DNA from: Propionicimonas sp.
GTDB lineage: Bacteria; Actinomycetota; Actinomycetes; Propionibacteriales; Propionibacteriaceae
Length of the DNA: 64,000 nt
Assembly: GCF_029975155.1 (NCBI RefSeq)
Contig: NZ_JARKPQ010000140.1
Coordinates: 16,195-80,194 of the forward strand
Direction: 5' to 3'
The notes under the pieces were generated by a model, which did not search any database, was not told the DNA's origin, and worked only from the letters and a program-made list of their open reading frames with translations. The position numbers were made by a program, and so were the translations under genes. Every line of letters begins with the position of its first letter. Positions within the stretch are counted from its first letter, which is position 1. Positions 8,755 through 44,242 of the stretch are shown here, piece after piece.

Positions 8755-9033
8755 TCACTTCTCGATCGACGGGAGGATCTTCTCCACGTCGGTGTGCGGG
8801 CGCGGGATCACGTGGACGGAGACGAGCTCGCCCACGTTCTTGGCCGCGACGGCGCCGGCGTCGGTGGCGGCCTTGACTGCTCCGACGTCACCGCGGACGA
8901 GCACGGTGACCAGGCCGGAGCCCACTCGCTGGCTTCCGATGAGGACGACATTGGCCGACTTGACCATGGCGTCCGCTGCTTCAACAGCGGCGACGAAACC
9001 CTTCGTCTCCACCATTCCGAGGGCTTCCTGCAT
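8755..9033 (-). CDS. pduA: BMC-H shell protein PduA
   Basis: A 92-residue BMC-H protein heading the main pdu operon, with the motif set [37 protein letters not shown] and [13 protein letters not shown], ending in [10 protein letters not shown]. PduA hexamers have a central pore for propanediol entry. The track ORF is 60 residues too long; I take the ATG preceded by AGGAG. It is a close paralogue of the pduJ copy, probably by duplication. The 315-base region upstream is shared with divergent pduU and must hold the operon promoter. Confidence 0.95.
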
Positions 9034-9348
9034 TCCAGACTCCTGTCGTTGGGTCTCCTCCACCGGCACCGATATTCCCGGCGGCATTCGCATTGACGGT
9101 AGGTCGGGATGGCAGCACGAAACGGCCCTCCAGGGACCACTTTCGGCGCGCCTTCGGCCGGCCAAGTCGACCGGAAAGTGCAAGCCGGACGACGGGATCG
9201 TGCAGGTCTGCACACGACCGTCCGATCTGTTGACACCCCGTCCGGGCGCACGGACGATGACCCTGTCCGACCACGGGGACAGGTCCCATTACCGTTCGCT
9301 CCCGCGGCCGACCCGCGGCGGCCACCGCCCACGAGGTGAGAGGCAGGG
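9034..9348. promoter_or_regulatory. Divergent pduA/pduU control region
   Basis: This 315-base gap between divergent pdu operons should contain both promoters and the PocR sites. Two features stand out. One is a perfect 6-2-6 palindrome GTGCAGgtCTGCAC at 9200-9213. The other is an imperfect pair CACTTTCGG / CCGGAAAGTG around 9140-9180. A partial copy of the 'ggggacaggtcccatt' dispersed repeat lies at 9273-9299, close to pduU. I could not assign -10/-35 boxes with confidence, and I did not see a cobalamin riboswitch. Confidence 0.45.
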
Positions 9349-9690: not shown

Positions 9691-10112
9691 AGCGGATCCT
9701 GCTGGTCGGCGGCGTCGGCTGCGGCAAGACCACCCTGCTGCAGCGCCTGCACGGCACCGAACTCAGCTACGCGAAGACCGAGACCATCTACACCGACGGC
9801 GCCGTGGTGGACACCCCTGGGGAGTACCTCGAGCTGCCCTGGTTCAAGCATGCGCTGCGGCTGGCGTCGTTCGAGACCGAGCTGGTGGTGCTGCTCGCGT
9901 CCGCCACCGTCGGGGAGGCGCGGTTCCCGCCCGGCTTCACCACGTTCTTCATGCCACCGTCGATCGGCGTGGTGACCAAGATCGACATCGCGACCCCGGC
10001 CGAGGTCGCCACCGCGTCCAGCCACCTGCGCCTCGCCGGCGCGACCGAGTTGTACGAGGTCTCCGCCCTCACCGGAGAGGGCATGGACGTCCTCGCCGCC
10101 CGCCTGGCCTGA
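9687..10112 (+). CDS. pduV: EutP/PduV-family GTPase-like protein
   Basis: A 141-residue Ras-like P-loop protein of the PduV/EutP family. The GTG start (VKRILLVGG) overlaps the pduU stop; the track version begins upstream in pduU. The P-loop GGVGCGKTT, a G3-like 'VVDTPGEYLELPW', and 'VVTKIDIA' (G4) are intact, and 'YEVSALTGEGMD' matches the SAL loop. In Salmonella, PduV binds PduU and has been linked to microcompartment movement. It is the last gene of the two-gene pduUV unit; repeat DNA follows. Confidence 0.92.
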   Translation: MKRILLVGGVGCGKTTLLQRLHGTELSYAKTETIYTDGAVVDTPGEYLELPWFKHALRLASFETELVVLLASATVGEARFPPGFTTFFMPPSIGVVTKIDIATPAEVATASSHLRLAGATELYEVSALTGEGMDVLAARLA

Positions 10113-14508: not shown

Positions 14509-16794
14509 TCAGACGGCCTCGGCGAGGTAGAGCACGACGTGGTCGGGCTGCATCGGGGCCTCGATCAGGCCGGTGGTGGCCAGCAGCGAGCCGGGCAGGA
14601 CCACGCCGGACGGTGCGCCGGCGAGTCGCAGCGTGGGGACGGGACCGGCGCCGGCGGACTCGGGGCTGAGGTCCAGTTCGACCCCCCACCAGGGCGGGGG
14701 AAGGACGCCCGACGGCGGCGGGCCGACCAGGACCGGTGACACCCGGTAGCGCCGGGCGGGATCGAGGCCCGGCAGCGGCAGCCGGCCCAGGAGCGCGGGG
14801 GTGTGCCACGCCACGGTCGCGAACGAGTAGAGCGCCCGGGAGCGGTCCGGCGCGACCACGCCACCGGCGACGATCGAGTCGTCCGGGACGTCGATGCGGA
14901 CCAGATCGCCGCCCAGCAGCAGGTCGCGATGAGCCTTGTAGAACGCGATCCAGCCGGCGAGCTCCGCACGCTCCGCCGGGGTCGCCGTCCGGATGTCCCA
15001 CTCGATGCCGAAGTGGCCGAAGAGCGCGGTCCCCGCCCGGAAGCCCAGCTCGTGGGTGCGTCCGGTGGTGTGCGACGTGCCGGACGCGATGTGCGAACCC
15101 ATCAGCTCCGGCGGGAGGAGCTGGGTGGTCCACCGCAGCATCTGCTGCCGCTCCTGCGGGTCGATGCAGTCCGACACCCAGACCCGGTCGGTGTGCTGCA
15201 GGACGCCCAGGTCGACCCGGCCGCCGCCCGCCGAGCACGACTCGATCTCCAGGCCCGGATGCGCGGCCTTGAGTTCGTCCATCAGCCGGTAGGTGGCCTC
15301 GGTCTGCGCGTGCACCCCGGGACGGCCGTCGGGCCGGCTGCCCGCGTCGATCAGGTCGCGGTTGTGGTCCCACTTGATGTAGTCGATCCGGTACTCGTCG
15401 AGCAGCGCGAGCATCGCGTCCCGCAGGTAGGCGTAGCACTCCGGGATCCCCAGGTTGAGCACCTGCTGGTGGCGGAACGCCGGCGGCAGCCGGTCCCCGG
15501 CGGCCAGCACCCACTCCGGGTGCGCCCTGGCGACGTCGGAGTCGAGGTTCACCATCTCCGGCTCGAACCACAGGCCGAACTGCATGCCCAGCTCGCGGAC
15601 CCGGTTCACCAGCGGGTGCAGCCCGTCCGGCCAGACCTCCGCGGACACCTGCCAGTCGCCCAGCCCCGCCCAGTCGTTGCGCCGGGCGCCGAACCAGCCG
15701 TCGTCCAGCACGTACCGCTCGACGCCGATCGCCGCCGCCTGCTCGGCCAGCTCCAGCAGCGGCGGCAACGAATGGTCGAAGTAGACCGCCTCCCACACGT
15801 TGATCGTCACGGGACGCTGCGTGGACGGATGCGTCGGACGCGCGCGCAGGTGCCGGTGGAAGCGGCGGGCCACCTCGTCCAGGCCGACGCCGTACGAGCC
15901 GTAGAGCCACGGACCGGTGTAGGCCTCGCCGGGACCGAGCACCATCTCCCCCGGCAACAGCAGTTCCCCGCCGCCGAGCAACTGCTCGCCGGTGATCATG
16001 CGTTCGGCGTAGTGGGTGTGGTTGCCGCTCCACCCGATGTGGACGCCCCAGACCTCGCCGGACCCGAAGCCGAAGCCGGCCGTGCCCGCGTGCAGCACGG
16101 TGGCCGCGTCCGCGCCGGTGCGGCCCCTGCGGCCCTCGCGCAGGTGGGTCCCGATGGTGAACGGACGGCGTTGCGGCACGCGCTCCTTGCCCCAGCGGCC
16201 GGTCAGGTCGAGCAGTTCCGATGCCACGACGGGCACCGGGTACGCCAGCACGAGATCGTTCAGCTGGTAGTCGGTGGAGCCGGTGTTCGTCAGCCGCGCC
16301 CGGCTGCGCAGCACCCCGCCGGCGGCCAGCTCGACCGTCAGCACCAGCTCGAGCCCGGCGACCTCGTCCACGGCGGTCACCTCGACGCTGCCGGTGCCGA
16401 GGGTGACGAGGGTGGGGCGGCCGGACGGGGTCTCGACCCTTCGACGGGGCTCAGGGGAACCCGGCTCGACCAGCGGTTGGGGTGCAACCCTGAGCGTCCT
16501 CGTCGTGAACGCCGGCGACCAGTCGCGGCCGCCGCGCGAGCCGCTCAGCCCGGGCCGGCCCATCCAGCCGGTGCGGTGCTCGGGCAGCATTCCCACCCGC
16601 ACCGGCTCGTCCACCAGGTTCGGGGCCATCGGGTACGCCCCGGCCGTGACCAGGGCCGTCACGTCCGCGAGGGTCAGCTCGCCGGGATCGGCACCCCAGT
16701 GCGCGATCGCCGGCAGCCGGCCGCCGGCCAGGTCGAGGACGACCCCCACGCCGTCGGCGCGCAGTACGACGTAGGCATTCACGGTCTCGGTCAT
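14509..16794 (-). CDS. GH36 alpha-galactosidase
   Basis: A 761-residue glycoside hydrolase family 36 enzyme that releases terminal alpha-galactose from melibiose or raffinose-type sugars; no signal peptide is seen, so it acts in the cytoplasm on imported sugar. The N-terminal beta-supersandwich is followed by the TIM barrel with 'VLDDGWFGARRNDWAGLGDW', the nucleophile D476 in IKWDHNR and the acid/base D542 in WVSDCIDP. Residues ~104-126 (LVEPGSPEPRRRVETPSG) do not look like native protein and match dispersed-repeat DNA, probably a surface-loop insertion. Its ATG overlaps the stop of the upstream LacI gene (ATGA). A divergent ABC importer supplies the substrate. Confidence 0.93.
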   Translation of the reverse strand: MTETVNAYVVLRADGVGVVLDLAGGRLPAIAHWGADPGELTLADVTALVTAGAYPMAPNLVDEPVRVGMLPEHRTGWMGRPGLSGSRGGRDWSPAFTTRTLRVAPQPLVEPGSPEPRRRVETPSGRPTLVTLGTGSVEVTAVDEVAGLELVLTVELAAGGVLRSRARLTNTGSTDYQLNDLVLAYPVPVVASELLDLTGRWGKERVPQRRPFTIGTHLREGRRGRTGADAATVLHAGTAGFGFGSGEVWGVHIGWSGNHTHYAERMITGEQLLGGGELLLPGEMVLGPGEAYTGPWLYGSYGVGLDEVARRFHRHLRARPTHPSTQRPVTINVWEAVYFDHSLPPLLELAEQAAAIGVERYVLDDGWFGARRNDWAGLGDWQVSAEVWPDGLHPLVNRVRELGMQFGLWFEPEMVNLDSDVARAHPEWVLAAGDRLPPAFRHQQVLNLGIPECYAYLRDAMLALLDEYRIDYIKWDHNRDLIDAGSRPDGRPGVHAQTEATYRLMDELKAAHPGLEIESCSAGGGRVDLGVLQHTDRVWVSDCIDPQERQQMLRWTTQLLPPELMGSHIASGTSHTTGRTHELGFRAGTALFGHFGIEWDIRTATPAERAELAGWIAFYKAHRDLLLGGDLVRIDVPDDSIVAGGVVAPDRSRALYSFATVAWHTPALLGRLPLPGLDPARRYRVSPVLVGPPPSGVLPPPWWGVELDLSPESAGAGPVPTLRLAGAPSGVVLPGSLLATTGLIEAPMQPDHVVLYLAEAV

Positions 16795-34539: not shown

Positions 34540-34790
34540 CCGTCATCCCGGGCTTCGACTGAGTTCTCCGTCATCCCGGGCTCCGACCCGGGATCCCCGA
34601 ACAGTCCCCACACCGACTCACGGGATCCCGGCATCCGCCGGGATGACACGACGAGAGACCACCCCAAACCGTCATCCCGGGCCGGGATGACAACGAGAGA
34701 CCACCCCAAGCCGTCATCCCGGGCTCCGACCCGGGATCCCCGAACGGTCCCTACACGGACTCACCGGATCCCGGCGTCCGCCGGGATGAC
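34540..34790. repeat. Dispersed palindromic repeats entering the GTPase gene
   Basis: At least two copies of 'gtcatcccgggctccgacccgggatcccc...ggatcccggcgtccgccgggatgac' lie here. The last copy overlaps the final codons and the stop of the minus-strand GTPase gene. No separate gene is present. Confidence 0.85.
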
Positions 34791-36422
34791 ACTCGCCGCC
34801 GTCCCGACCGTCGCGTCGAGTGAGGCCAGGTCCGCCTCGATCGCCGGGAGGTCGGTGCTCTGCGTGTCCAGGAGTTGCCGGCACGTGAGCTCGGCCTCGC
34901 GCAGGGCGGCCACGTGGTCGGCCAGGCTCTGTTCGAGGCTTCGCCTCGCCGCGGCTGCCGTGCGGTAGCCGGTGCGGGCGAGGTTGCGCTCCACCTGCGC
35001 AGGCACCATCCGCAGGAAGTGCCGGTGCACCAGCGGACGCAGCAGCGCCATCGGCAGAGCCCAGGAGAGCAGCTCCAGATGGCTGTCGAAGACCGCGCTC
35101 ACCATCACGTCGACCGGTTCCACGGGCGTCCGGACGGGCTGCGGGACGGGGAGGTCGAGACCGACGCCGGTCGCCTCGCGGACGAGCCGGCCGAGCCGCT
35201 GCAGAAAGGCCTCCCCCATCCGTTCCGCCGGCTCCAGGCCCTGGTCGAGGAGCGGTCCGAGCTCGTCCGCGCAGGCCGCGGCGAACGGCGTGGCCGCGTC
35301 GCGGAGCGCGTGCCGCAGCCAGTCCCGGAACTGCGCGGTCTCGGCGGCGAGAGAGCCCCGCCACGCAGGCAGGCGTCCGGCGAGATCGCGCTGCACCCGC
35401 CACGCGGTGGCCGGCAGCGCCTCCCCCACCATCGCCTGGCAGCGCGCGGTGATCGTCCGGTTGACCGGTTCGAGCTGGGCGCGCGCCTGGCGGGTGAGGC
35501 TCGGCAGGCGCCGGCTCTCCGCGTCCAGGGCACCGCGCAACTGCGCCATCGCCTCGGCGTGGGTCGTCGCGGCGAGCCGGGCCAGCTCCAGGTAGGTCCG
35601 GCACTCGGTGGCGAGCCGGACCGACCGGTACGCCGCGAGGTCGGTCGCCGCGGCCGTCGCCGAGTCGCTCAGCTCCCGCAACTCCCTGCGCAGCCGCTCG
35701 CGCTGCGGCCGGTGCCGGGCGGCGCTGGACACGGGCAGGACGGACGGCGCAACGGGCAGCCGCCGGCCGAGCTGCGTCCTGACGTGCTCGAGGACGGCTC
35801 GCTGGTCGTGCTCAGTGAGCAGGTCGATCTTGGTCAGCGCGATCAGGATCCGCGGCGTGTGCGGGTGGAGCAGTTCGAGGAGCTCCAGGTCGTCCTCGGC
35901 GAGCGGCTGGGTGGCGTTGACGGCGAGGATCGCGGCGCCGACGTTCGGCAGCCAGTCCAGGCTCGCGCGGGTGTTGTGCTTCCAGGAGCTCCCCGTCCCC
36001 GGAGTGTCCACCAGGACCAGTCCGGCGAGGTCGGCCAGCGCCGGGGACGCCACGTCCACCCACTCCACGCCGCGGTGGTTCGACGGGTTGCCGGTCTCGG
36101 TGGCCCAGTGCCCGATCTCCGCCGGCTCGATGCCGAACGGCGCCCCCGTCCCGGTCTTCACCGACACGCGCAGGGCCGGGCCGAACCGCAGCCGGGTGAT
36201 CACGGCGGTGGCCGGGATCGCCTGCACCGGCAGCAGGTCCTCCCCGAGAAGCTGGTTCAGCAGCGTGGTCTTGCCGGCCTTGAACCGGCCGAGGACGGCG
36301 ACCGTGACCAGCCCTTCGGCGGCCTGCTGCTGTGCCGTGCGGCAACGCCGGTCGATGTCGGTCAGGTGGTGACGGCGCGCGATCCCGGCGATCGTGGCCA
36401 GGTCAGGGGAGAACGATCCCAT
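34761..36422 (-). CDS. Dynamin-like GTPase under fluoride riboswitch
   Basis: A 553-residue large GTPase. G1 GRFKAGKT (45-52), G3 DTPG (139-142, followed by TGSSWKHN), and G4 TKID (197-200) are intact. Residues 250-450 are mostly helical, and a hydrophobic patch near the C-terminus (LLSWALPMALLRPLVHR) could be a membrane paddle, as in bacterial dynamin-like proteins. The last residues (SVIPADAGIR and the stop) are translated from a dispersed repeat. A fluoride riboswitch-like RNA lies 10 bases upstream of the start, back to back with the one serving enolase. Its role in fluoride stress is not described to my knowledge; membrane repair or remodelling is a guess. Confidence 0.86.
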   Translation of the reverse strand: MGSFSPDLATIAGIARRHHLTDIDRRCRTAQQQAAEGLVTVAVLGRFKAGKTTLLNQLLGEDLLPVQAIPATAVITRLRFGPALRVSVKTGTGAPFGIEPAEIGHWATETGNPSNHRGVEWVDVASPALADLAGLVLVDTPGTGSSWKHNTRASLDWLPNVGAAILAVNATQPLAEDDLELLELLHPHTPRILIALTKIDLLTEHDQRAVLEHVRTQLGRRLPVAPSVLPVSSAARHRPQRERLRRELRELSDSATAAATDLAAYRSVRLATECRTYLELARLAATTHAEAMAQLRGALDAESRRLPSLTRQARAQLEPVNRTITARCQAMVGEALPATAWRVQRDLAGRLPAWRGSLAAETAQFRDWLRHALRDAATPFAAACADELGPLLDQGLEPAERMGEAFLQRLGRLVREATGVGLDLPVPQPVRTPVEPVDVMVSAVFDSHLELLSWALPMALLRPLVHRHFLRMVPAQVERNLARTGYRTAAAARRSLEQSLADHVAALREAELTCRQLLDTQSTDLPAIEADLASLDATVGTAASVIPADAGIR

Positions 36423-36432
36423 GCGTGTCCGG

Positions 36433-36488
36433 TCCTTCTCTCGTCAGGGACCGTCAGCAGGGTGCGGTTGAGGCGAGCCCCATCGCCT
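36433..36488 (-). promoter_or_regulatory. Fluoride riboswitch (crcB motif) upstream of GTPase gene
   Basis: Read on the minus strand: GGCGATGGGGCTCGCC, then TCAACCGC, a short loop, and GCTGACGGTCCCTGA. This matches the fluoride-riboswitch pattern GGCGATG-N-CGCC, AAC(C/T)GC, GCTGATGG(C/T)TCC(T)AC, with the GGGG/TCCC pseudoknot possible. It ends about ten bases before the GTPase start, which favours control of translation. The core was identified by eye from the known consensus. Confidence 0.82.
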
Positions 36489-36544
36489 GGAACACATGGT
36501 AACCGTGGTCGCCCCTGACGCGACGGGTCGACTAGAGTCGGCAG

Positions 36545-36604
36545 TGGGCGGTGGGGCTCGCCCTTACTCAAACTGCCGTGCCCGCGGCCAACGGTCCCTA
36601 CCTC
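36545..36604 (+). promoter_or_regulatory. Fluoride riboswitch (crcB motif) upstream of enolase
   Basis: GGGCGGTGGGGCTCGCCC, TTACTC, AAACTGCC, loop, GGCCAACGGTCCCTAC. The P1 stem, the AAACTGCC strand and the 3' GGTCCCTAC pseudoknot strand all match the fluoride aptamer; the usual GATG is GGTG here. It lies about 125 bases before the enolase ATG. The spacer contains a hairpin (GGCTCCA/TGGAGCC) near 36690 that could be part of the expression platform. Confidence 0.78.
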
Positions 36605-36728
36605 ATGTGCAGTCCGGCTGGACATGGAGGTGGGGCTTTCGCTCACTTTCACCTCACCCTTCGCGGCCAGCCGGGCTGCACCCCTCCCGGGCTCCACCGT
36701 GGAGCCGGCGAAGCGAAAGGGGACGGTC

Positions 36729-37994
36729 ATGGGTTTCGAGATCAGCAGCGTGCAGGCGTTGGAGGTGCTGGACTCCCGCGGGCGTCCCACGCTCTCGGTG
36801 ACGGTCGGCCTCGCGGACGGGACGGTGGCCGAGGCCGGGGTGCCGTCCGGCGCGTCGACGGGGACGCGGGAGGCCGTCGAACTCCGCGACGGGGACCCGG
36901 CCCGGTTCGGCGGTGCGGGCGTCAGCCAGGCCGTCGCCCACGTGAACACCGAGATCAACGCCGGGCTGGCCGGACGCGAATGGGCCGGTCTCGCCGAGGT
37001 CGACCAGGCCATGCGCGACCTGGACGGCACCCCGAACAAGGCCCGGCTGGGCGCCAACGCGATCATCGGGACGTCGATGGCGCTGGCCCGGGCGCTCGCC
37101 GCCGCCGCGGGGTCGCCGCTGTACGAGTGGCTGCCCGGCACCGGTGCGTCCCGCCGCCTGCCGGTGCCCTGTTTCAACGTGCTGAACGGCGGCGCCCACG
37201 CCCCCAACCCGCTGGACTTCCAGGAGTTCATGGTCTGCCCGCTCGGCGCGCCGTCGATGCGCGAAGCCGTCCGCGCGGGGGCGGAGGTGTACCAGGCGCT
37301 GCGGAAGCGGCTCGTCGCCGGCGGACACGCCACCGGGCTGGGCGACGAGGGCGGGTTCGCGCCGAACCTCGCCGAGCCGGAGGAGGTCCTGGAGCTGATC
37401 GTCGCGGCGATCGGGGACGCCGGCTACGCCGCCGGCAGTGACGGGGTGGGCATCGCGCTCGACCCGGCCGCGTCCGAGTTCTGGTCGGACGGCGGCTACA
37501 CGGTGAACCAGGTGCGGCTGTCCAGCGCGGATCTGATCGCCCGCTACGCCGAGATGCTGGACCGCTTCCCGATCTGGAGCATCGAGGACGGCCTCGGCGA
37601 GCAGGATCCGGACGGCTGGAAGCAGCTCACCGCCGAGCTCGGCGACCGCGTCCAGCTGGTCGGGGACGACAACTTCTGCACGAACCCGGCGATCATCACC
37701 GCGGCGATCGCCGACGGGATCGCCAACGCCGCCCTGATCAAGGTGAACCAGATCGGCACGGTCACCGAGACCCTGGAGGCGATGCGGATCTGCCACGCGG
37801 CCGGGTACGGCCAGATGGTCTCCCACCGCTCCGGCGAGACCCCGGACACGTTCATCGCCGACCTCGCGGTGGCCACCGGCTGCGGCCAGATCAAGACCGG
37901 CGCCCCCGCCCGCGGCGAGCGGGTGGCGAAGTACAACCGCCTGGTCCAGATCGAGGCCCAGCGTCCCGCCCTGCCCTACGGTCTGGCCCGGTAG
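36729..37994 (+). CDS. eno: Enolase, fluoride-responsive copy
   Basis: A 421-residue phosphopyruvate hydratase (2-phosphoglycerate to phosphoenolpyruvate). Conserved parts: PSGASTGTREAVELRD, NVLNGGAHAPNPLDFQEFM, GLGDEGGFAPN, IEDGLGEQDPDGW, KVNQIGTVTETLEAM and SHRSGETPDTFIADLAVA. The usual 'GDDLFVTN' reads GDDNFCTN, two changes next to a Mg-binding Asp. Fluoride with phosphate is a classical enolase inhibitor, so a copy behind a fluoride riboswitch fits a compensating or less sensitive isozyme. Whether the genome has another, housekeeping eno cannot be seen here. Confidence 0.95.
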   Translation: MGFEISSVQALEVLDSRGRPTLSVTVGLADGTVAEAGVPSGASTGTREAVELRDGDPARFGGAGVSQAVAHVNTEINAGLAGREWAGLAEVDQAMRDLDGTPNKARLGANAIIGTSMALARALAAAAGSPLYEWLPGTGASRRLPVPCFNVLNGGAHAPNPLDFQEFMVCPLGAPSMREAVRAGAEVYQALRKRLVAGGHATGLGDEGGFAPNLAEPEEVLELIVAAIGDAGYAAGSDGVGIALDPAASEFWSDGGYTVNQVRLSSADLIARYAEMLDRFPIWSIEDGLGEQDPDGWKQLTAELGDRVQLVGDDNFCTNPAIITAAIADGIANAALIKVNQIGTVTETLEAMRICHAAGYGQMVSHRSGETPDTFIADLAVATGCGQIKTGAPARGERVAKYNRLVQIEAQRPALPYGLAR

Positions 37995-38134: not shown

Positions 38135-38503
38135 CTACAGGCTGCCCAGCCAGAACCCCAGTGCGGCGCCGGCGACGCTGAGGACCAGCATGCCGCCGGC
38201 ATGGACGAGCAGTGCCCAGCCGCGGCCGCCCCGGGCGAGCCGCGCGGCCTCCACGCAGGCGGTGCTGAAAGTCGTGTAGCCGCCGAGGAAGCCGGTGCCG
38301 AGCAACTGCTTGAGTTCCGGGTCGCCGGTGTGGGTGGCCCACCAGCCGGTGATCACGCCGAGCAGGAGCGACCCGGTGACGTTGATCACGGCCGTGCCCA
38401 GGGGCATGCCGCGGTTCGTCGTCCGCCGGGCGACCTCCGAGTCGACCACGAACCGCGCGACCGCGCCGAACCCGCCGGCGAGCGCGACCAGGAACGGGAT
38501 CAT
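38135..38503 (-). CDS. crcB: Fluoride exporter subunit CrcB/Fluc (distal copy)
   Basis: A 122-residue four-helix membrane protein. Signature segments are GGFGAVARFVVDS (first helix), GTAVINVTGSLLLGVITGWW (the pore Asn helix) and GFLGGYTTFSTACVEAARL (the TTFST phenylalanine-box break). Fluc channels act as dual-topology dimers that let fluoride leave the cell. Two adjacent genes usually give an antiparallel heterodimer. The ATG overlaps the stop of the other crcB (ATGA). Confidence 0.95.
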   Translation of the reverse strand: MIPFLVALAGGFGAVARFVVDSEVARRTTNRGMPLGTAVINVTGSLLLGVITGWWATHTGDPELKQLLGTGFLGGYTTFSTACVEAARLARGGRGWALLVHAGGMLVLSVAGAALGFWLGSL

Positions 38504-38979
38504 CGGATCGCCCCCTTCGCGAGCCGGTAGCGGCGCAGCAGCCGCCGCACTCCTCTGGCGCCGAGGAACGCGCACAGAAGGCCGAGCAGCACGCTGCCCA
38601 GCGCGTAGCCCAGACCGACCAGCCATGCCCCGGAATGGACCAACTGCGCCGTTTCGACCGCGAACGTGCTGTACGTGGTGTAGCCACCCATCACGCCGGT
38701 GCCCACGCCGAGCCTCAACCCGCGGCGCCAGCCTCGATCGGGACCGGTCTCGGCCAGCACCTCCAGCAGCACCCCCAGCACGAGCGCGCCGGAGACGTTG
38801 ATCCAGAAGGTGGTCCACGGCCACTCCCCCGGCATGGCCGGGAACGCACCCTCCAGCCACGCGCGGGCGGACGTGCCGACCGTGCCGCCGAGGAGGATCA
38901 CCCCCAGCCACGCGGGACGCACCGGAATGCGCAGCATCCGCAGGCCGGGGATGGAATGGCCGTCCTGCGGCCGGGTCAC
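38500..38979 (-). CDS. crcB: Fluoride exporter subunit CrcB/Fluc (proximal copy)
   Basis: A 159-residue Fluc subunit. The GTG start overlaps the stop of the uspA-like gene (GTGA). After an N-terminal ~30-residue extension come 'LGGTVGTSARAWLE', 'TFWINVSGALVLGVLLEVL' and 'GVMGGYTTYSTFAVETAQLV', the three Fluc signatures, and a basic C-terminus (RRLLRRYRLAKG). The charge distribution differs from the partner copy, as expected for two fixed-orientation subunits. Confidence 0.95.
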   Translation of the reverse strand: MTRPQDGHSIPGLRMLRIPVRPAWLGVILLGGTVGTSARAWLEGAFPAMPGEWPWTTFWINVSGALVLGVLLEVLAETGPDRGWRRGLRLGVGTGVMGGYTTYSTFAVETAQLVHSGAWLVGLGYALGSVLLGLLCAFLGARGVRRLLRRYRLAKGAIR

Positions 38980-39518
38980 CACGGGGTCGGTGCCTTCCAG
39001 TCGACGACGGAGAGCGGCACGATCAGCACGGGACGGTGCTGGTGCCGCGACAGCCGCAGCGCCACCGAACCCGCGATGAACTCGCGCAGCCGGTCGGTGG
39101 ACGACAGCCGCTTCGCGCCCACGACGATCGCGGACGCCTCGACGGCCCGCGCCAGGTGCGTGAGCGCCCGGTCGGGACGCCCGGCGAGGTAGCGGAACTC
39201 CCACGGACCCTCGTGGCTGGCCAGTGCGCGCCCGAGGAAGGCGGTGATGTCCCGCTCGCGCTGCTGCCAGGAGTCGTCCGCCTGGTCGGGGTCGAGATCC
39301 GAGTGCCGGACGGTGCCGTCCGCGTACTCCTCGTCGACGATCCGGGACTCGTCCGCGTAGCCGAAGTACAGCGGCACACCGCCGAGCGCGTCCGACCAGG
39401 CCGACGCGGTGAGCGCCACCAGTTCGGACTGACCCGGCACCACACCGACCACCAGCGGCTGGCCCGCCACCGGGGCCATGCGATCGGGACTGGGCTGCGG
39501 CACGTGGTGGAACGGCAC
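38976..39518 (-). CDS. Universal stress protein-like protein heading the fluoride exporter operon
   Basis: A 180-residue UspA-fold protein. 'PLVVGVVPGQSELVALTASAW' is the first strand and helix. The later motif 'ASAIVVGAKRLSSTDRLREFIAGSVALRLSRHQHRPVLIVP' follows the nucleotide-binding GxxG-x9-G(S/T) pattern in spacing. Start set at a GTG seven bases after GGAGG; an internal ATG at 39479 lacks a clear ribosome site. It lies between a fluoride riboswitch and two crcB genes, all coupled. UspA-like genes are known among riboswitch-linked fluoride genes. Confidence 0.85.
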   Translation of the reverse strand: MPFHHVPQPSPDRMAPVAGQPLVVGVVPGQSELVALTASAWSDALGGVPLYFGYADESRIVDEEYADGTVRHSDLDPDQADDSWQQRERDITAFLGRALASHEGPWEFRYLAGRPDRALTHLARAVEASAIVVGAKRLSSTDRLREFIAGSVALRLSRHQHRPVLIVPLSVVDWKAPTPW

Positions 39519-39570
39519 GGATCGACCTCCGCTCAGAGGGGCGCCGAACTCCCGCGCGCCCGCCAAGGAC

Positions 39571-39634
39571 GTACAGGAACCATCAGCCGGTCGGCGGTTC
39601 GGGATTGCCCCGGGTGGGATCCATCACCCGCCGC
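39571..39634 (-). promoter_or_regulatory. Fluoride riboswitch (crcB motif) upstream of uspA-crcB-crcB
   Basis: Minus strand: GGGTGATGGATCCCACCC, a small extra hairpin (GGGGCAATCCC), AACCGCC, loop, GGCTGATGGTTCCTGTAC. This is the best match in the window, with the canonical TGATGG, AACCGCC and GGCTGATGGTTCC segments. It ends 52 bases before the uspA-like start. Confidence 0.9.
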
Positions 39635-39649
39635 ACACCCTAGCCCGGA

Positions 39650-39731: not shown

Positions 39732-40340
39732 TCAGAGACCGGTCTGGTGCGTGACGGCCAGGGCCGTCTCGATGGGGTCGTCCTTGCTGTTGGCGCGGAT
39801 CAGGTGCCAGCCGGTGTCGTCGTGGCGCAGGAGGCTCCAGCAGCCGGTGCGGGGCTGGACGTGCTCGGTGTGGCCGGGGGTGGGGGTCAGGGTGTCGAGC
39901 AGGATCCGGATCACGGCGTCATGGCTGACCACGGCGACCGCGACGTCCTCGCCCAGGTCGGCCAGCTCGGCGACCACGGCGTGGGCGCGCTCGGCCACCG
40001 CAGCGGACGGTTCCACGCCCGGCGCGGCATCGAAGGACCCGTAGTCGGCCAGCACGTCCGCCGCCGGCGTGCCGTCGAAGCGGCCGTACGCGCGGTCGGC
40101 GAGCCGCTCGTCCGTCTCGACCTCCACCTCGGCGGCCTCGGCGATCGGGGTCGCCGTCTCCACCGCCCGGCTCAGCGGGCTGGAGATCACCCGGACGAGG
40201 CCCACGTCCCGCAGCGCGGCGGCGAGGTCGCGGGCCTCCGCGTGACCCACCAGGTCGAGGTCGGGGTCGAGCCGTCCGCGCAGGAGCCCCGCGACGTTGA
40301 GCTGGGTGCGACCGTGGCGGCACAGGTAGATGTCGGTCAT
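39732..40340 (-). CDS. Histidine phosphatase family protein
   Basis: A 202-residue member of the phosphoglycerate mutase-like histidine phosphatase superfamily. The catalytic RHG motif is YLCRHGRTQLN (His9), with 'VISSPLSRAVETA' containing the second catalytic Arg and 'AVAVVSHDAVIRILL' the C-terminal His. It is the last gene of the MutS-like operon, its ATG overlapping the stop of the second MutS-like gene. Substrate unknown. Presence in a fluoride-regulated operon may point to a phosphorylated metabolite that builds up when enolase is blocked (speculative). Confidence 0.85.
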   Translation of the reverse strand: MTDIYLCRHGRTQLNVAGLLRGRLDPDLDLVGHAEARDLAAALRDVGLVRVISSPLSRAVETATPIAEAAEVEVETDERLADRAYGRFDGTPAADVLADYGSFDAAPGVEPSAAVAERAHAVVAELADLGEDVAVAVVSHDAVIRILLDTLTPTPGHTEHVQPRTGCWSLLRHDDTGWHLIRANSKDDPIETALAVTHQTGL

Positions 40341-41824
40341 GTCGGTGTCCTTTCACACAGGCGTTCGTACAGGTCGATGCCATGGCTGGTGGCCTGCGGT
40401 TGCCCGGGCAGGACGCGGAAGCTGCGCGTCCCGTCCAGCTGCCGTTCGGCCAGCAGGAAGATCGTGCCCGGCCGGTCGAGGTAGTGCCGCGCGAGCCGGG
40501 CGAAGTGGGTGACCACGACCAGCCGCAGGCCGTGGTCGAGGAGCGCGTCGATGATGTCCGCGGCGATCCAGGTGCCCTCCACCTCGTCGGTGGAGGCGAA
40601 GGACTCGTTCATCAGCAGCAGGTCGCCCGGCTGGCACCGGTCGACGATCGCGCTCATCCGGACGAGCTCCTCCGCCAGCTTGCCGCTGGCCAGGTCGTCG
40701 TCCTCCGCCCTCCGGAAGTGGGTGTGCACCGCGGGCGCCGGGCACGACCGGAACGCCCTCGCCGGCACGAACATGCCGGCCTGGAGGAACAGCTGCGCGA
40801 TGCCGATGCTGCGCAGGAACATGGTCTTGCCGCCCTGGTTGGCCCCGGTGATCACCGCCAGGCCGACCCGCGAGCCGGTCAGGTCGTTGGGCACCGGCGG
40901 CGCGCCGGTCCGGACGGCCAGGCTCAGACAGGACAGCCCGGAGGCGGACAGCGCGTCGCGTTCGCCCGCCGGCTCCGGCCAGCAGACGCCCACACCGATC
41001 TCGGCGAGCCGCTCGTGCAGCTGCACGCAGCCGACGTAGAAGCCGGCCTCCCAGCGCAGCTGCCTGAAGAACGCCACGACGTGGTCGTTCGCCCGGCCGA
41101 GGATGACGGCCACGTCGTGGATGGCGTCGTCGCGGAGTTCGGCCAGCGCCCGCGCCCCGGCCTCGTCGCGGTCCGCGATCGTGAACCGGGGCTGGCCCGG
41201 CGGGGTGAATCCGAGGGCAGCCCACCAGTGCCGCCGTCCCGGACGGGGGGCGAGCAGCTCCAGCGAGCCGAGCAGCCCCGACTCGTCCAGGCGCGCCCTG
41301 CTGACCACCCCCTGCGGGAACTCGAGCCGGGTCAGCAGCGCGGCCATGTCGTCGAGGTACCCGGCGTCCAGTTCCTCGACCAGTCGCCGGTACAGCCCGA
41401 ACAACCCGGGCGAGCGGACGGACGGCAGGTGCTGCGCGGCGAACCCGGCGAGCTCCCCCAGCAGGGGCAGCAGCGCCCGCAGGCCGTGGATCGAGCGGGA
41501 CAGCAGCGAGTCGGCGGTCCGCCCGGCGTACATCCAGATCGAGTGCTGGCTCTCCAGCGCCCGCCCGGACAGGTCGAAGAGAGCGCGGATCGCGGACGGG
41601 TCGGCGAGCGCGTCGGCGAGGACGTGCTGGCGCCAGGCGATCTGCGCGGGATCGACCAGCGGACGCAGCAGGACGGCCGGGCACAGGCCCTGCAACCGCC
41701 GCTCGGGGACCATCACCTCGAACACCGAGTCGAGGTCGAGGTCGGCGATCAGCTCGTCCGCGCCGTCCGGGAGGGTGGTGCCCAGGTCGGCGTCCCGGTC
41801 GGGGAACAGCAGCTGGACCTTCAT
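40337..41824 (-). CDS. MutS-like ATPase, second copy
   Basis: A 495-residue protein with only the core/clamp-like helical region and C-terminal ATPase of MutS; the mismatch-recognition N-terminal domain is absent. Walker A is TGANQGGKT (327-334 region). The Walker-B segment reads DLLLMNESFAST, so the usual Asp-Glu is Asn-Glu, while Glu is kept. 'LVVVTHFARLARHYLD' supplies the switch His. It starts at the ATG overlapping the stop of the first copy (the 862-residue track ORF runs into that gene in another frame). The pair probably forms a heterodimer. MutS-like genes are known companions of fluoride riboswitches, with unknown function. Confidence 0.88.
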   Translation of the reverse strand: MKVQLLFPDRDADLGTTLPDGADELIADLDLDSVFEVMVPERRLQGLCPAVLLRPLVDPAQIAWRQHVLADALADPSAIRALFDLSGRALESQHSIWMYAGRTADSLLSRSIHGLRALLPLLGELAGFAAQHLPSVRSPGLFGLYRRLVEELDAGYLDDMAALLTRLEFPQGVVSRARLDESGLLGSLELLAPRPGRRHWWAALGFTPPGQPRFTIADRDEAGARALAELRDDAIHDVAVILGRANDHVVAFFRQLRWEAGFYVGCVQLHERLAEIGVGVCWPEPAGERDALSASGLSCLSLAVRTGAPPVPNDLTGSRVGLAVITGANQGGKTMFLRSIGIAQLFLQAGMFVPARAFRSCPAPAVHTHFRRAEDDDLASGKLAEELVRMSAIVDRCQPGDLLLMNESFASTDEVEGTWIAADIIDALLDHGLRLVVVTHFARLARHYLDRPGTIFLLAERQLDGTRSFRVLPGQPQATSHGIDLYERLCERTPT

Positions 41825-43389
41825 CGCAGCCTCCGGGCCAGATCGTCGCCGGAGAGGCCGTGCCGGGCGGCCAGCGCGGCCGCGTGGGTGCGGCCGGCGG
41901 GCGGCTGGGCGCGGAACCGGAAGGTCGGCCGGGTGGGGTCGTCGGACGCGACCTGGCCCACCATGCTGACCGCGCCGTCCGTCGCGGTGACCAGCTCTTC
42001 GAGGAACGTCACCCACAGCACCCGGCAGCCCGCCTCGGCGAAGCGGCCGAGCACGCGTCCGGACAGCTGCAGCGCGTCCTCGGCCGTGGTGGCCGAGAAC
42101 AGCTCGTTGAGCACGAGCAGCGCCGACCCGTCCGCCGCGTCCAGCAGGTCGCGCAACCGGACCAGCTCGTCGGCGAGACCACCCCGCTGGTTGGCCGGGT
42201 CGTCCGGACGCGGGAAGTGGGTGAGCACCGGGTTGAGCACCGGCAGGGATGCCGCTCTGGCAGGCACGGGCAGGCCCAGCGACGCGAGGTGCGCCAGCTG
42301 CCCGGCCGCACGGACATAGGTGGTCTTGCCGCCCTGGTTGGGTCCGGTGACGAAGACGAGCCGCTCGTCCGGGCGCAGGGCCAGGTCGTTCGGCACGAGC
42401 GGGTCGTCCGGGCCGGCCTTGAGCGCGAGGGCGAGATCGACGAAGCCGCTCAGGTCGAGCGGGCCGCCACCGGGCTCGCGGACCTGCGGCAGGCACCACG
42501 GGACGCCGCGGGCGGCGAGCCCGTCCGCGACCTTGAGGAAGCCGAGGTAGAAACGCAGCTCCTCGCCCAGGTGGTCCAGCTCGTCGGGCAGGAAGTGGGC
42601 GTGGGCGGTCGCGAACCGGTGCAGGCGCTCGAAGGCCTCGGGCATGAGCTCGGCAACCAGCCCGATCGCCTGGGCCTCGACGTGGTTGAGGTAGCGCCGC
42701 GGACGCGCCGGGGCGGGGCTCGCGTCCCCGTCCGGCGTGGCGAAGCGGGCGAAGAACGACTCGACCTGCTCGCCCCACGGCTGCCGGCCGCCGTCCGGGG
42801 CGGCCCAGACGGTGCCGCTCTGGATGCCGAGTTCCACGGCGGGGCCGCGCACCTCGACCAGCGAGGCCGCGCAACCCTCTGCCAGGTCGCCGAACGGCTG
42901 GCTGCGCTCGTAGTCGGCCAGCCATTCGGCGACACCGGTCAGCCCGGCGGACCGTGGCCGGAGGTGATCCAGCCGGGCGCGAAAGTCGCGCACGGCCGCC
43001 GTGAACCGTCGGATCGCCTCAAGCGTGTCGAGGTCGGCGGGGATCCGGTAGTGGGCGTTCGCACGGGCGGCGATGGCATTCCTGGAGGCGGCGACGGCGG
43101 CCTCGAACGAGGTGGCCGCCGCGCGGAGATCGGTCCGCTGCAGGTCGCGGACGACCTCTTGCCGGTAGCGGATCTGCTCCGGGTCGCGGAGGGGCCTGAG
43201 CCACACCGCGCGCTGGAACTCACCCGGCGCCATGGCGGCGACGACGGCGTCCAGGTGCAGGTCCTCGATGCAGGCCGGCTGCACGACAGCCGTCCGCTCG
43301 GGACCGGACGGGCCGAGCAGCGTCGGTGCGGCAGGACCGCGGGTGGTGACTGTCCCTGGTGGGTGAATGACATAGCCGGCTGCGCTCAT
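41821..43389 (-). CDS. MutS-like ATPase, first copy, under fluoride riboswitch
   Basis: A 522-residue MutS-type ATPase lacking mismatch-binding and connector domains. An N-terminal segment is followed by a helical clamp-like region and the ATPase with Walker A GPNQGGKT (349-356). The region after it (RAASLPVLNPVLTHFPRPDD) resembles the MutS dimer interface. The Walker-B analogue is ALLVLNELFSAT, again Asn-Glu. It heads a three-gene unit joined by ATGA overlaps and is preceded by a fluoride riboswitch 19 bases upstream. A role in classic mismatch repair is unlikely. Confidence 0.88.
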   Translation of the reverse strand: MSAAGYVIHPPGTVTTRGPAAPTLLGPSGPERTAVVQPACIEDLHLDAVVAAMAPGEFQRAVWLRPLRDPEQIRYRQEVVRDLQRTDLRAAATSFEAAVAASRNAIAARANAHYRIPADLDTLEAIRRFTAAVRDFRARLDHLRPRSAGLTGVAEWLADYERSQPFGDLAEGCAASLVEVRGPAVELGIQSGTVWAAPDGGRQPWGEQVESFFARFATPDGDASPAPARPRRYLNHVEAQAIGLVAELMPEAFERLHRFATAHAHFLPDELDHLGEELRFYLGFLKVADGLAARGVPWCLPQVREPGGGPLDLSGFVDLALALKAGPDDPLVPNDLALRPDERLVFVTGPNQGGKTTYVRAAGQLAHLASLGLPVPARAASLPVLNPVLTHFPRPDDPANQRGGLADELVRLRDLLDAADGSALLVLNELFSATTAEDALQLSGRVLGRFAEAGCRVLWVTFLEELVTATDGAVSMVGQVASDDPTRPTFRFRAQPPAGRTHAAALAARHGLSGDDLARRLR

Positions 43390-43407
43390 GGGCGTCCCTC
43401 CATCCGA

Positions 43408-43453
43408 GGTAGGGACCGTCAGCGTTCGCGGTTGTCGGCGAGCCCCATCGCCG
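43408..43453 (-). promoter_or_regulatory. Fluoride riboswitch (crcB motif) upstream of MutS-like operon
   Basis: Minus strand: GGCGATGGGGCTCGCC, GAC, AACCGC, GAAC, GCTGACGGTCCCTAC. Nearly the same as the copy ahead of the GTPase gene (same P1 stem, same TGACGGTCCCT). It ends about 19 bases before the MutS-like ATG, and the spacer contains GGAGGGA as ribosome-binding site. Confidence 0.85.
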
Positions 43454-43525
43454 TCCCTCCACTGTACCCGCAGCGCCCGCCGGGAGAACCTGCCGCCAAC
43501 CCCACCAACCGTTGGTCGGGCGGCG

Positions 43526-44049
43526 TCAGCCCTTCAGGCCGACGGAGGCGGTGCCCTCGATGAAGTAGCGCTGGCCGAAGGCTGCGGCACCGCGAACACC
43601 TGGCCGTCGTAGGTCACGTCGTCGATCGTCGACTGGTAGTACTGCTGGTTCGGCGTGACGCCCCACAGGGCGTAGCACTGATCGAGCGGGATGATCAGGT
43701 TCTTCGCCGCGAAGGTGGCGACGACGTTGCGTTCCACCTGGATCAGGTCCGGCGCCTGGCCGGCCGCCGCCCGGGCCGCGAACTTCTGCGGGTCGAAGTT
43801 GGTGGTGTCCATGTCGACCTTCAGGCCGCCGAGCTTGCTCGCCGCGAAGTCGGCGCGCGACTGGCCGACCTCGTCGGACGGGTTGAAGCCGCTGGTCCTG
43901 AGCGTGCCCGTGACGTCCTTGCTGAAGACGCTCGACGCGGACGCGCCGGGCGTCGCCTTGCCGCCGGTGTTCGGGCCACCTCCGCATCCGGTCGCCACCA
44001 GTGCGGTCGCCACTGCGAGCGCCGCTCCTGCCAGGTGGATCCTGCTCAT
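43526..44049 (-). pseudogene. Deletion remnant: sugar-binding lipoprotein N-terminus joined to a permease C-terminus
   Basis: The first ~155 codons encode a normal solute-binding lipoprotein start: signal AALAVATALVATGCGGG, then 'QAPDLIQVERNVVATFAAKNLIIPLDQCY' and 'TIDDVTYDGQVFAVPQ'. The reading then jumps, with a frame change, to AFGQRYFIEGTASVGLKG and a stop. That ending is typical of the C-terminus of MalG-type permeases (QR-x-F-x-x-G-x-x-x-G-x-x-KG). An internal deletion must have removed the rest of the binding protein, one permease and most of the other. The lipoprotein piece has a good GGAGG site and may still be made. Confidence 0.75.
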
Positions 44050-44242
44050 CTCCAACCTCCGCTCCCGACGTCTGGCGAGAGAAGTGCCCTTCTTCACCGG
44101 TCCTTAACCGGTGTTCATCACGGACGTGTGAATCGCGCCCCCGAACCTCAGAAGTGTTGCCCAGTTACCTGTTCCGAGAGAGCCGGTTAGTGGGGAGCAC
44201 AGGCATCCGACGCCGTCGGCGCAGCAGGACGAGGAGAAGACC
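44050..44242. other. Promoter region of envelope-type operon
   Basis: A 193-base divergent gap between the lipoprotein remnant and the 44.2-kb operon. No repeat or palindrome stands out; GAGGAGAAG lies just before the downstream ATG. The region around 44105-44125 ('ttaaccggtgttcatcacgg') is the likeliest promoter area. Confidence 0.35.

Follow-up and report, generated by a model that had tools for sequence, protein, structure and literature searches.

Cells are known to defend themselves against fluoride by exporting it, by replacing enzymes that it poisons and by making general stress proteins; enolase is a known fluoride target, and metal-fluoride transition-state analogues of GTPases are established. 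Among genes associated with the fluoride riboswitch (crcB RNA motif, RF01734), mutS, ion transport and formate hydrogen lyase genes were named in 2010 (PMC2864571), and enolase has also been named as a target (PMC11139923). In Enterobacter cloacae FRM, fluoride resistance has been proven genetically for an operon comprising ppaC, uspA, eno, gpmA and crcB (PMC5533749). On the protein side, the BDLP of Nostoc (PDB 2j68, 2j69) and the dynamin-like protein (DLP) pair of Campylobacter (5owv) have been investigated as proteins that tubulate and tether membranes, with no link to fluoride. IniA of Mycobacterium smegmatis (PDB 6j72), which consists of a GTPase domain, helical bundles and a basic tip, is stress-induced, its inducers being cell-wall drugs and not fluoride; the basic tip loop binds acidic lipids and the protein performs GTP-dependent membrane fission (PMC6715688). 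DynA of Bacillus subtilis serves membrane surveillance and gathers at damaged membrane (PMC8844932).

Here we describe a dynamin-like GTPase gene that directly follows a fluoride riboswitch in a 64,000-nucleotide stretch of Propionicimonas DNA, the whole of which is referred to as the window. The leader resembles described fluoride riboswitches in its conserved aptamer core, in its 5' UTR position and in the predicted use of the aptamer 3' strand for terminator or start-site platforms, but differs in its target, as no report of a dynamin-like target was found. A literature search for fluoride or its riboswitch together with dynamin returned nothing relevant, in agreement with an earlier note on this DNA, which knew of no described role for bacterial dynamin-like proteins in fluoride resistance; the primary publication on the fluoride riboswitch (Baker et al. 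2012) lay outside that search, and its supplement could hold an earlier listing.

A dynamin-like gene within a fluoride-resistance island

The gene, at 34761..36422 on the minus strand, starts with ATG and encodes a protein of 553 amino acids that matches Pfam Dynamin_N (PF00350, 66.4 bits, E 4e-18). It is preceded on the same strand by an aptamer at 36438..36496 (RF01734, E 1.2e-5), whose membership in the family is borderline, since its score of 34.0 bits is exactly the gathering score of 34. Both matches bear out the central claim of the earlier note, a dynamin-like GTPase directly after a fluoride riboswitch. The close spacing also stands, although the gap, put at about ten bases, was measured as 15 nt from the end of the model match to the start codon; the gene does lie in the span 34761-36488 given for it, but position 36488 falls within the aptamer, and the strand, which had been left unstated, is the minus strand. 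The GTPase-leader aptamer had further been called almost the same as that of the MutS-like operon, and the two indeed have nearly the whole core in common (GGCGATGGGGCTCGCC...CAACCGC...GCTGACGGTCCCT in both).

The neighbouring genes are arranged in several further units with aptamers of their own. On the plus strand, a divergent aptamer (36538..36607; RF01734 23.7 bits, below gathering, E 0.0045) precedes enolase (36729..37994; TIGR01060, 549.7 bits). On the minus strand, a riboswitch at 39567..39637 (38.2 bits) heads an operon formed by a universal stress protein (USP; 38976..39521; PF00582, 38.7 bits) and two CrcB/Fluc fluoride channel genes, the first at 38500..38982 (PF02537, 87.9 bits) and the second at 38135..38503 (79.6 bits). 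Another minus-strand riboswitch, at 43403..43461 (37.4 bits), precedes two MutS domain V ATPase genes (first gene, 41821..43389, PF00488 57.8 bits; second gene, 40337..41824, 55.3 bits) and a phosphoglycerate-mutase-like histidine phosphatase (39732..40340; PF00300, 140.9 bits). Three aptamers at or above threshold are found within 7 kb, the fourth being that of enolase, and these four are the only convincing RF01734 matches in the whole genome assembly. Because enolase, two CrcB channels, the USP, the phosphoglycerate-mutase-like protein and the MutS-like pair lie together with the four aptamers within 9 kb (34.7-43.5 kb), the block is a fluoride-resistance island. It shares with the E. cloacae FRM operon riboswitch control, a stress protein, enolase, a phosphoglycerate-mutase-like protein and CrcB, but consists of several aptamer-bearing units instead of a single operon, and the dynamin-like gene and the MutS-like pair, neither of which is named in that operon, appear as additions.

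At the borders of the island, tandem and inverted repeats (GTCATCCCGGG...CCGGGATGAC; 34540-34792) overlap the 3' terminus of the GTPase gene, making the last residues of the protein (VIPADAGIR) repeat-derived. Just upstream of the MutS-like operon there is a solute-binding-protein fragment of 187 amino acids (43534-44097, minus strand), seemingly from a truncated ABC transporter gene.

Distribution of the pairing and layout of the leader

The earlier note had proposed a search for riboswitch and dynamin-family pairs in other actinobacterial genomes. In a sample of 397 genomes drawn evenly across Actinomycetota the protein profile matched in 43; RF01734 was searched in this sample and in every genome that had given a GTPase match, and the coordinates were then compared. 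Excluding the window's own, 29 GTPase matches score above 114 bits; for 27 of them a same-strand aptamer lies 49-162 nt ahead of the first matched residue, although several of the aptamers score below gathering, down to 22 bits. The weaker matches (114 bits or less) have one upstream in only 1/15, and this exception (G395) is an aptamer followed by a dynamin-MutS-MutS operon in the order DLP-MutSa-MutSb. Counted from the RNA, 27 of the 116 fluoride riboswitches in the sample (E<=1e-4) directly precede a GTPase gene, and the aptamer-paired genomes cover about ten families. A plain-pattern search for aptamers, which returned numerous loose and false matches, served only as a lead; all claims rest on covariance-model scores.

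Within the family of the window organism the gene is sporadic, as only 4 full-length copies occur in 199 genomes. The two nearest relatives with sufficient flanking sequence (57% and 51% identity) come from a Propionibacteriaceae MAG and an Actinomycetota MAG; Rfam searches of the 1.5-kb flanks of the nearest relatives gave no match, their aptamers lying farther upstream, before MutS genes. The setting of the gene is the same: in locus L030 the GTPase closes a riboswitch-MutS-MutS-phosphatase-GTPase operon, and in L031 it stands between enolase and phosphatase, where enolase and the MutS pair are each preceded by an aptamer.

Outside the phylum, one genome per species was scanned and protein similarity was the sole basis for selecting loci, which makes the aptamers found there independent evidence. 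Full-length relatives occur in Acidobacteriota (32-35% identity) and, more distant, in Thermoplasmata. Among the former, an aptamer directly precedes the GTPase in L034, L036, L039, L044 (31.4 bits) and L038 (33.4 bits; contig positions 207635-207706, about 9785-9856 in the locus), the site in L041 is partly masked by N and scores 20 bits, and L035 has an aptamer-crcB unit upstream of the GTPase in the same direction; an aptamer directly before the GTPase was not found in L037, L040, L042 and L043. In several acidobacterial loci crcB directly follows the GTPase. Among Thermoplasmata, the aptamer precedes the gene in L046, L048, L049, L050 and L047 (32.3 bits), L045 is cut by the contig end, and a MutS-like pair follows the GTPase in L045, L046, L048 and L049 (order aptamer-GTPase-MutSa-MutSb). 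Homologues in several actinobacterial families, in Acidobacteriota and in Thermoplasmata thus carry the riboswitch, contrary to the possibility, raised in advance, that homologues elsewhere never do. A chance neighbourhood, or a false aptamer at the window site, could be suspected from a score merely at threshold; the same arrangement in 27/29 sampled homologues and in two other phyla makes it very improbable, and chance pairing is rejected by the homologue comparison (27/29 versus 1/15).

When 66 proteins are placed in a tree, the aptamer label clusters, with 11 changes against 19.9 for shuffled labels (0/500 as low). This count has to be read with the knowledge that some unlabelled rows belong to fluoride operons in which the gene lacks its own aptamer, and that the deep branches join very divergent proteins. 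In one actinobacterial group all 25 proteins carry the label; the 11 changes mean that a single origin of the pairing is not demonstrated. Proteins of the same family encoded in tandem pairs (L063-L068, L070) branch separately, with no aptamers before their genes; we take them for IniA/IniC-like, the name being inferred. The absence of a riboswitch sets these pairs apart from the window protein, and an assignment of the latter as an IniA/IniC orthologue was rejected on the basis of this separate branch.

In 22 of the 27 actinobacterial leaders the aptamer 3' strand (of the GCTCCTAC type) can pair with an arm farther downstream that leads into a U-rich stretch; from their sequences these are classed as a transcription-terminator layout, which the folded aptamer would preclude. 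Other leaders, and those of Acidobacteriota, place the arm over the Shine-Dalgarno site or the start codon. The longest-helix test used here is informative for the actinobacterial terminators, not for the archaeal leaders or the USP leader. The arm sequences vary between lineages while their complementarity is kept, which suggests selection. In the window, both the sequence and the minimum free energy (MFE) fold give a candidate OFF hairpin (36430..36453, minus strand), in which CGGUCC (36453-36448) and GGACCG (36435-36430) form 6 pairs over the Shine-Dalgarno sequence AAGGA (36437-36433); the whole leader is no more stable than shuffles (z -0.05, under a fold model without pseudoknots). Fluoride regulation of the dynamin-like gene is strongly supported, and appears as well established as comparative genomics allows; its membership in the fluoride regulon is very likely.

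Fold and proposed role of the dynamin-like protein

The motifs G1-G4 of the GTPase are intact (GRFKAGKT, T72, DTPG, TKID). An AF2 model built from 33 window and locus sequences (mean pLDDT 89, pTM 0.78) has a GTPase domain followed by very long helices (255-286, 289-353, 358-418 and 458-518) that make up a neck and trunk, and no transmembrane segment was found in the protein (best 19-residue hydropathy 1.2). The best solved structures in Foldseek were IniA (E 8.7e-19) and BDLP (E 1.8e-17), both with full-length alignment, the TM values being only 0.34-0.43 because the domains sit at other angles. IniA is also first in the PDB sequence search, although the identity in the structure alignment is 16-18%. 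The product is predicted to be a dynamin-like protein of the bacterial kind, with IniA and BDLP as its nearest counterparts and with the general fold of the Nostoc and Campylobacter proteins. A candidate tip at residues ~440-470 (FDSHLELLSWALPMALLRPLVHRHF in the window) is amphipathic and basic, and its 'LP...R' is conserved among relatives.

We propose, with a probability of about 0.6, that the gene encodes a fluoride-inducible DLP of the fluoride-resistance regulon that helps the cell to survive fluoride, probably at the membrane. In this mechanism, the aptamer in the leader would act as the fluoride sensor: from the base pairing, CGGUCC of its 3' strand would pair with GGACCG when fluoride is absent, hiding the Shine-Dalgarno site, whereas fluoride would stabilise an aptamer pseudoknot that keeps the CGGUCC strand, allowing translation to begin; in most actinobacterial relatives the same strand would feed a terminator instead. 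The product, a putative DLP that combines an intact GTPase with a helical trunk and an amphipathic tip, would, by analogy with studied DLPs, bind the inner face of the cytoplasmic membrane, assemble with GTP and reshape or seal a membrane under strain as HF enters and the proton gradient is lost; it would act alongside export through CrcB, additional enolase and the MutS-like ATPases. Fluoride enters as HF and is trapped by the pH gradient, and changes in membrane structure and integrity have been seen under fluoride stress (reviewed in PMC11139923); both observations fit a membrane role. A role of the protein in fluoride tolerance is likely, and membrane protection is plausible from the modelled fold and the studied relatives, while for membrane repair or remodelling as the actual mechanism we consider the odds to be even.

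Other functions can be conceived for a GTPase under this control. The protein might be a housekeeping membrane DLP that is itself poisoned, GDP together with MgF3- or AlF4- locking it, and whose amount is boosted by the riboswitch as is thought for enolase. Metal-fluoride analogues of GTPases are known, the fold matches include human Dlp1 in complex with GDP.AlF4, and the neighbouring enolase, a known fluoride target, has its own aptamer; moreover, some bacteria counter enolase inhibition by overproduction (reviewed in PMC11139923). However, the gene is absent from most genomes of the family, which accordingly have no such housekeeping target, and the tie to the riboswitch is peculiar to these DLPs and does not extend to the IniA/IniC-like ones, so we regard this explanation as unlikely. 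A role in placing, clustering or assembling CrcB in the membrane would agree with the position of crcB directly after the GTPase in several Acidobacteriota and just upstream in some actinobacterial loci, but seems improbable when crcB was not detected within ~8 kb of most actinobacterial copies and the archaeal partner is the MutS pair.

That partnership could in turn indicate a complex in which the DLP and the MutS-like ATPases free proteins or nucleic acid from fluoride-metal complexes. The aptamer-DLP-MutSa-MutSb operon of Thermoplasmata and of one actinobacterial genome, the MutS-MutS-phosphatase-DLP order of L030 and a weak match of one MutS-like protein to the aminomutase reactivase KamC (70.6 bits, with a cut-off of 300) point in this direction; many DLP loci, however, have no MutS-like gene nearby, and such a complex is quite improbable. 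Returning to the membrane-acting, fluoride-inducible DLP, we extend it only tentatively, at somewhat less than even odds, to a widespread class dedicated to fluoride stress in at least Actinomycetota, Acidobacteriota and Thermoplasmata, with membrane repair or remodelling as a general, undescribed branch of resistance. The presence of DLPs among the common fluoride-riboswitch targets, phylum-wide and in archaea, would point to membrane damage or remodelling as part of fluoride toxicity; microbes may survive fluoride partly through membrane remodelling, a side of the response that has been overlooked, and bacterial DLPs, whose roles are mostly unknown, would gain a defined inducing signal.

Further genes associated with fluoride aptamers

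The MutS domain V ATPase pair (40337-43389 in the window) is in itself a fluoride-regulated unit, conserved across both bacteria and archaea and frequently adjacent to a dynamin-like gene; loci with the pair are L045, L046, L048, L049, L164 and L171-L173. A second, very divergent dynamin-like gene with its own fluoride aptamer occurs in three Acidobacteriota loci, L036 (762-3008), L038 (6965-8995) and L041 (7976-10402, minus strand). Another genome of the family of the window organism (G148) contains ten fluoride aptamer matches (E<=0.01), most of them on one contig (C14; L171, 50000-69900), alongside two dynamin-like genes, a MutS pair, a crcB pair and a stress protein.

The divergent enolase aptamer (23.7 and 22.5 bits), which Rfam scoring would overlook, is 81% conserved over three genomes, its sites being 36538-36690 (plus strand) in the window, 8930-9090 (plus) in L031 and 15590-15730 (minus) in L030. 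Downstream of it, an arm GAGGUGGGG and a tail CUUUCGCUCACUUUC are conserved and have a terminator-like look.
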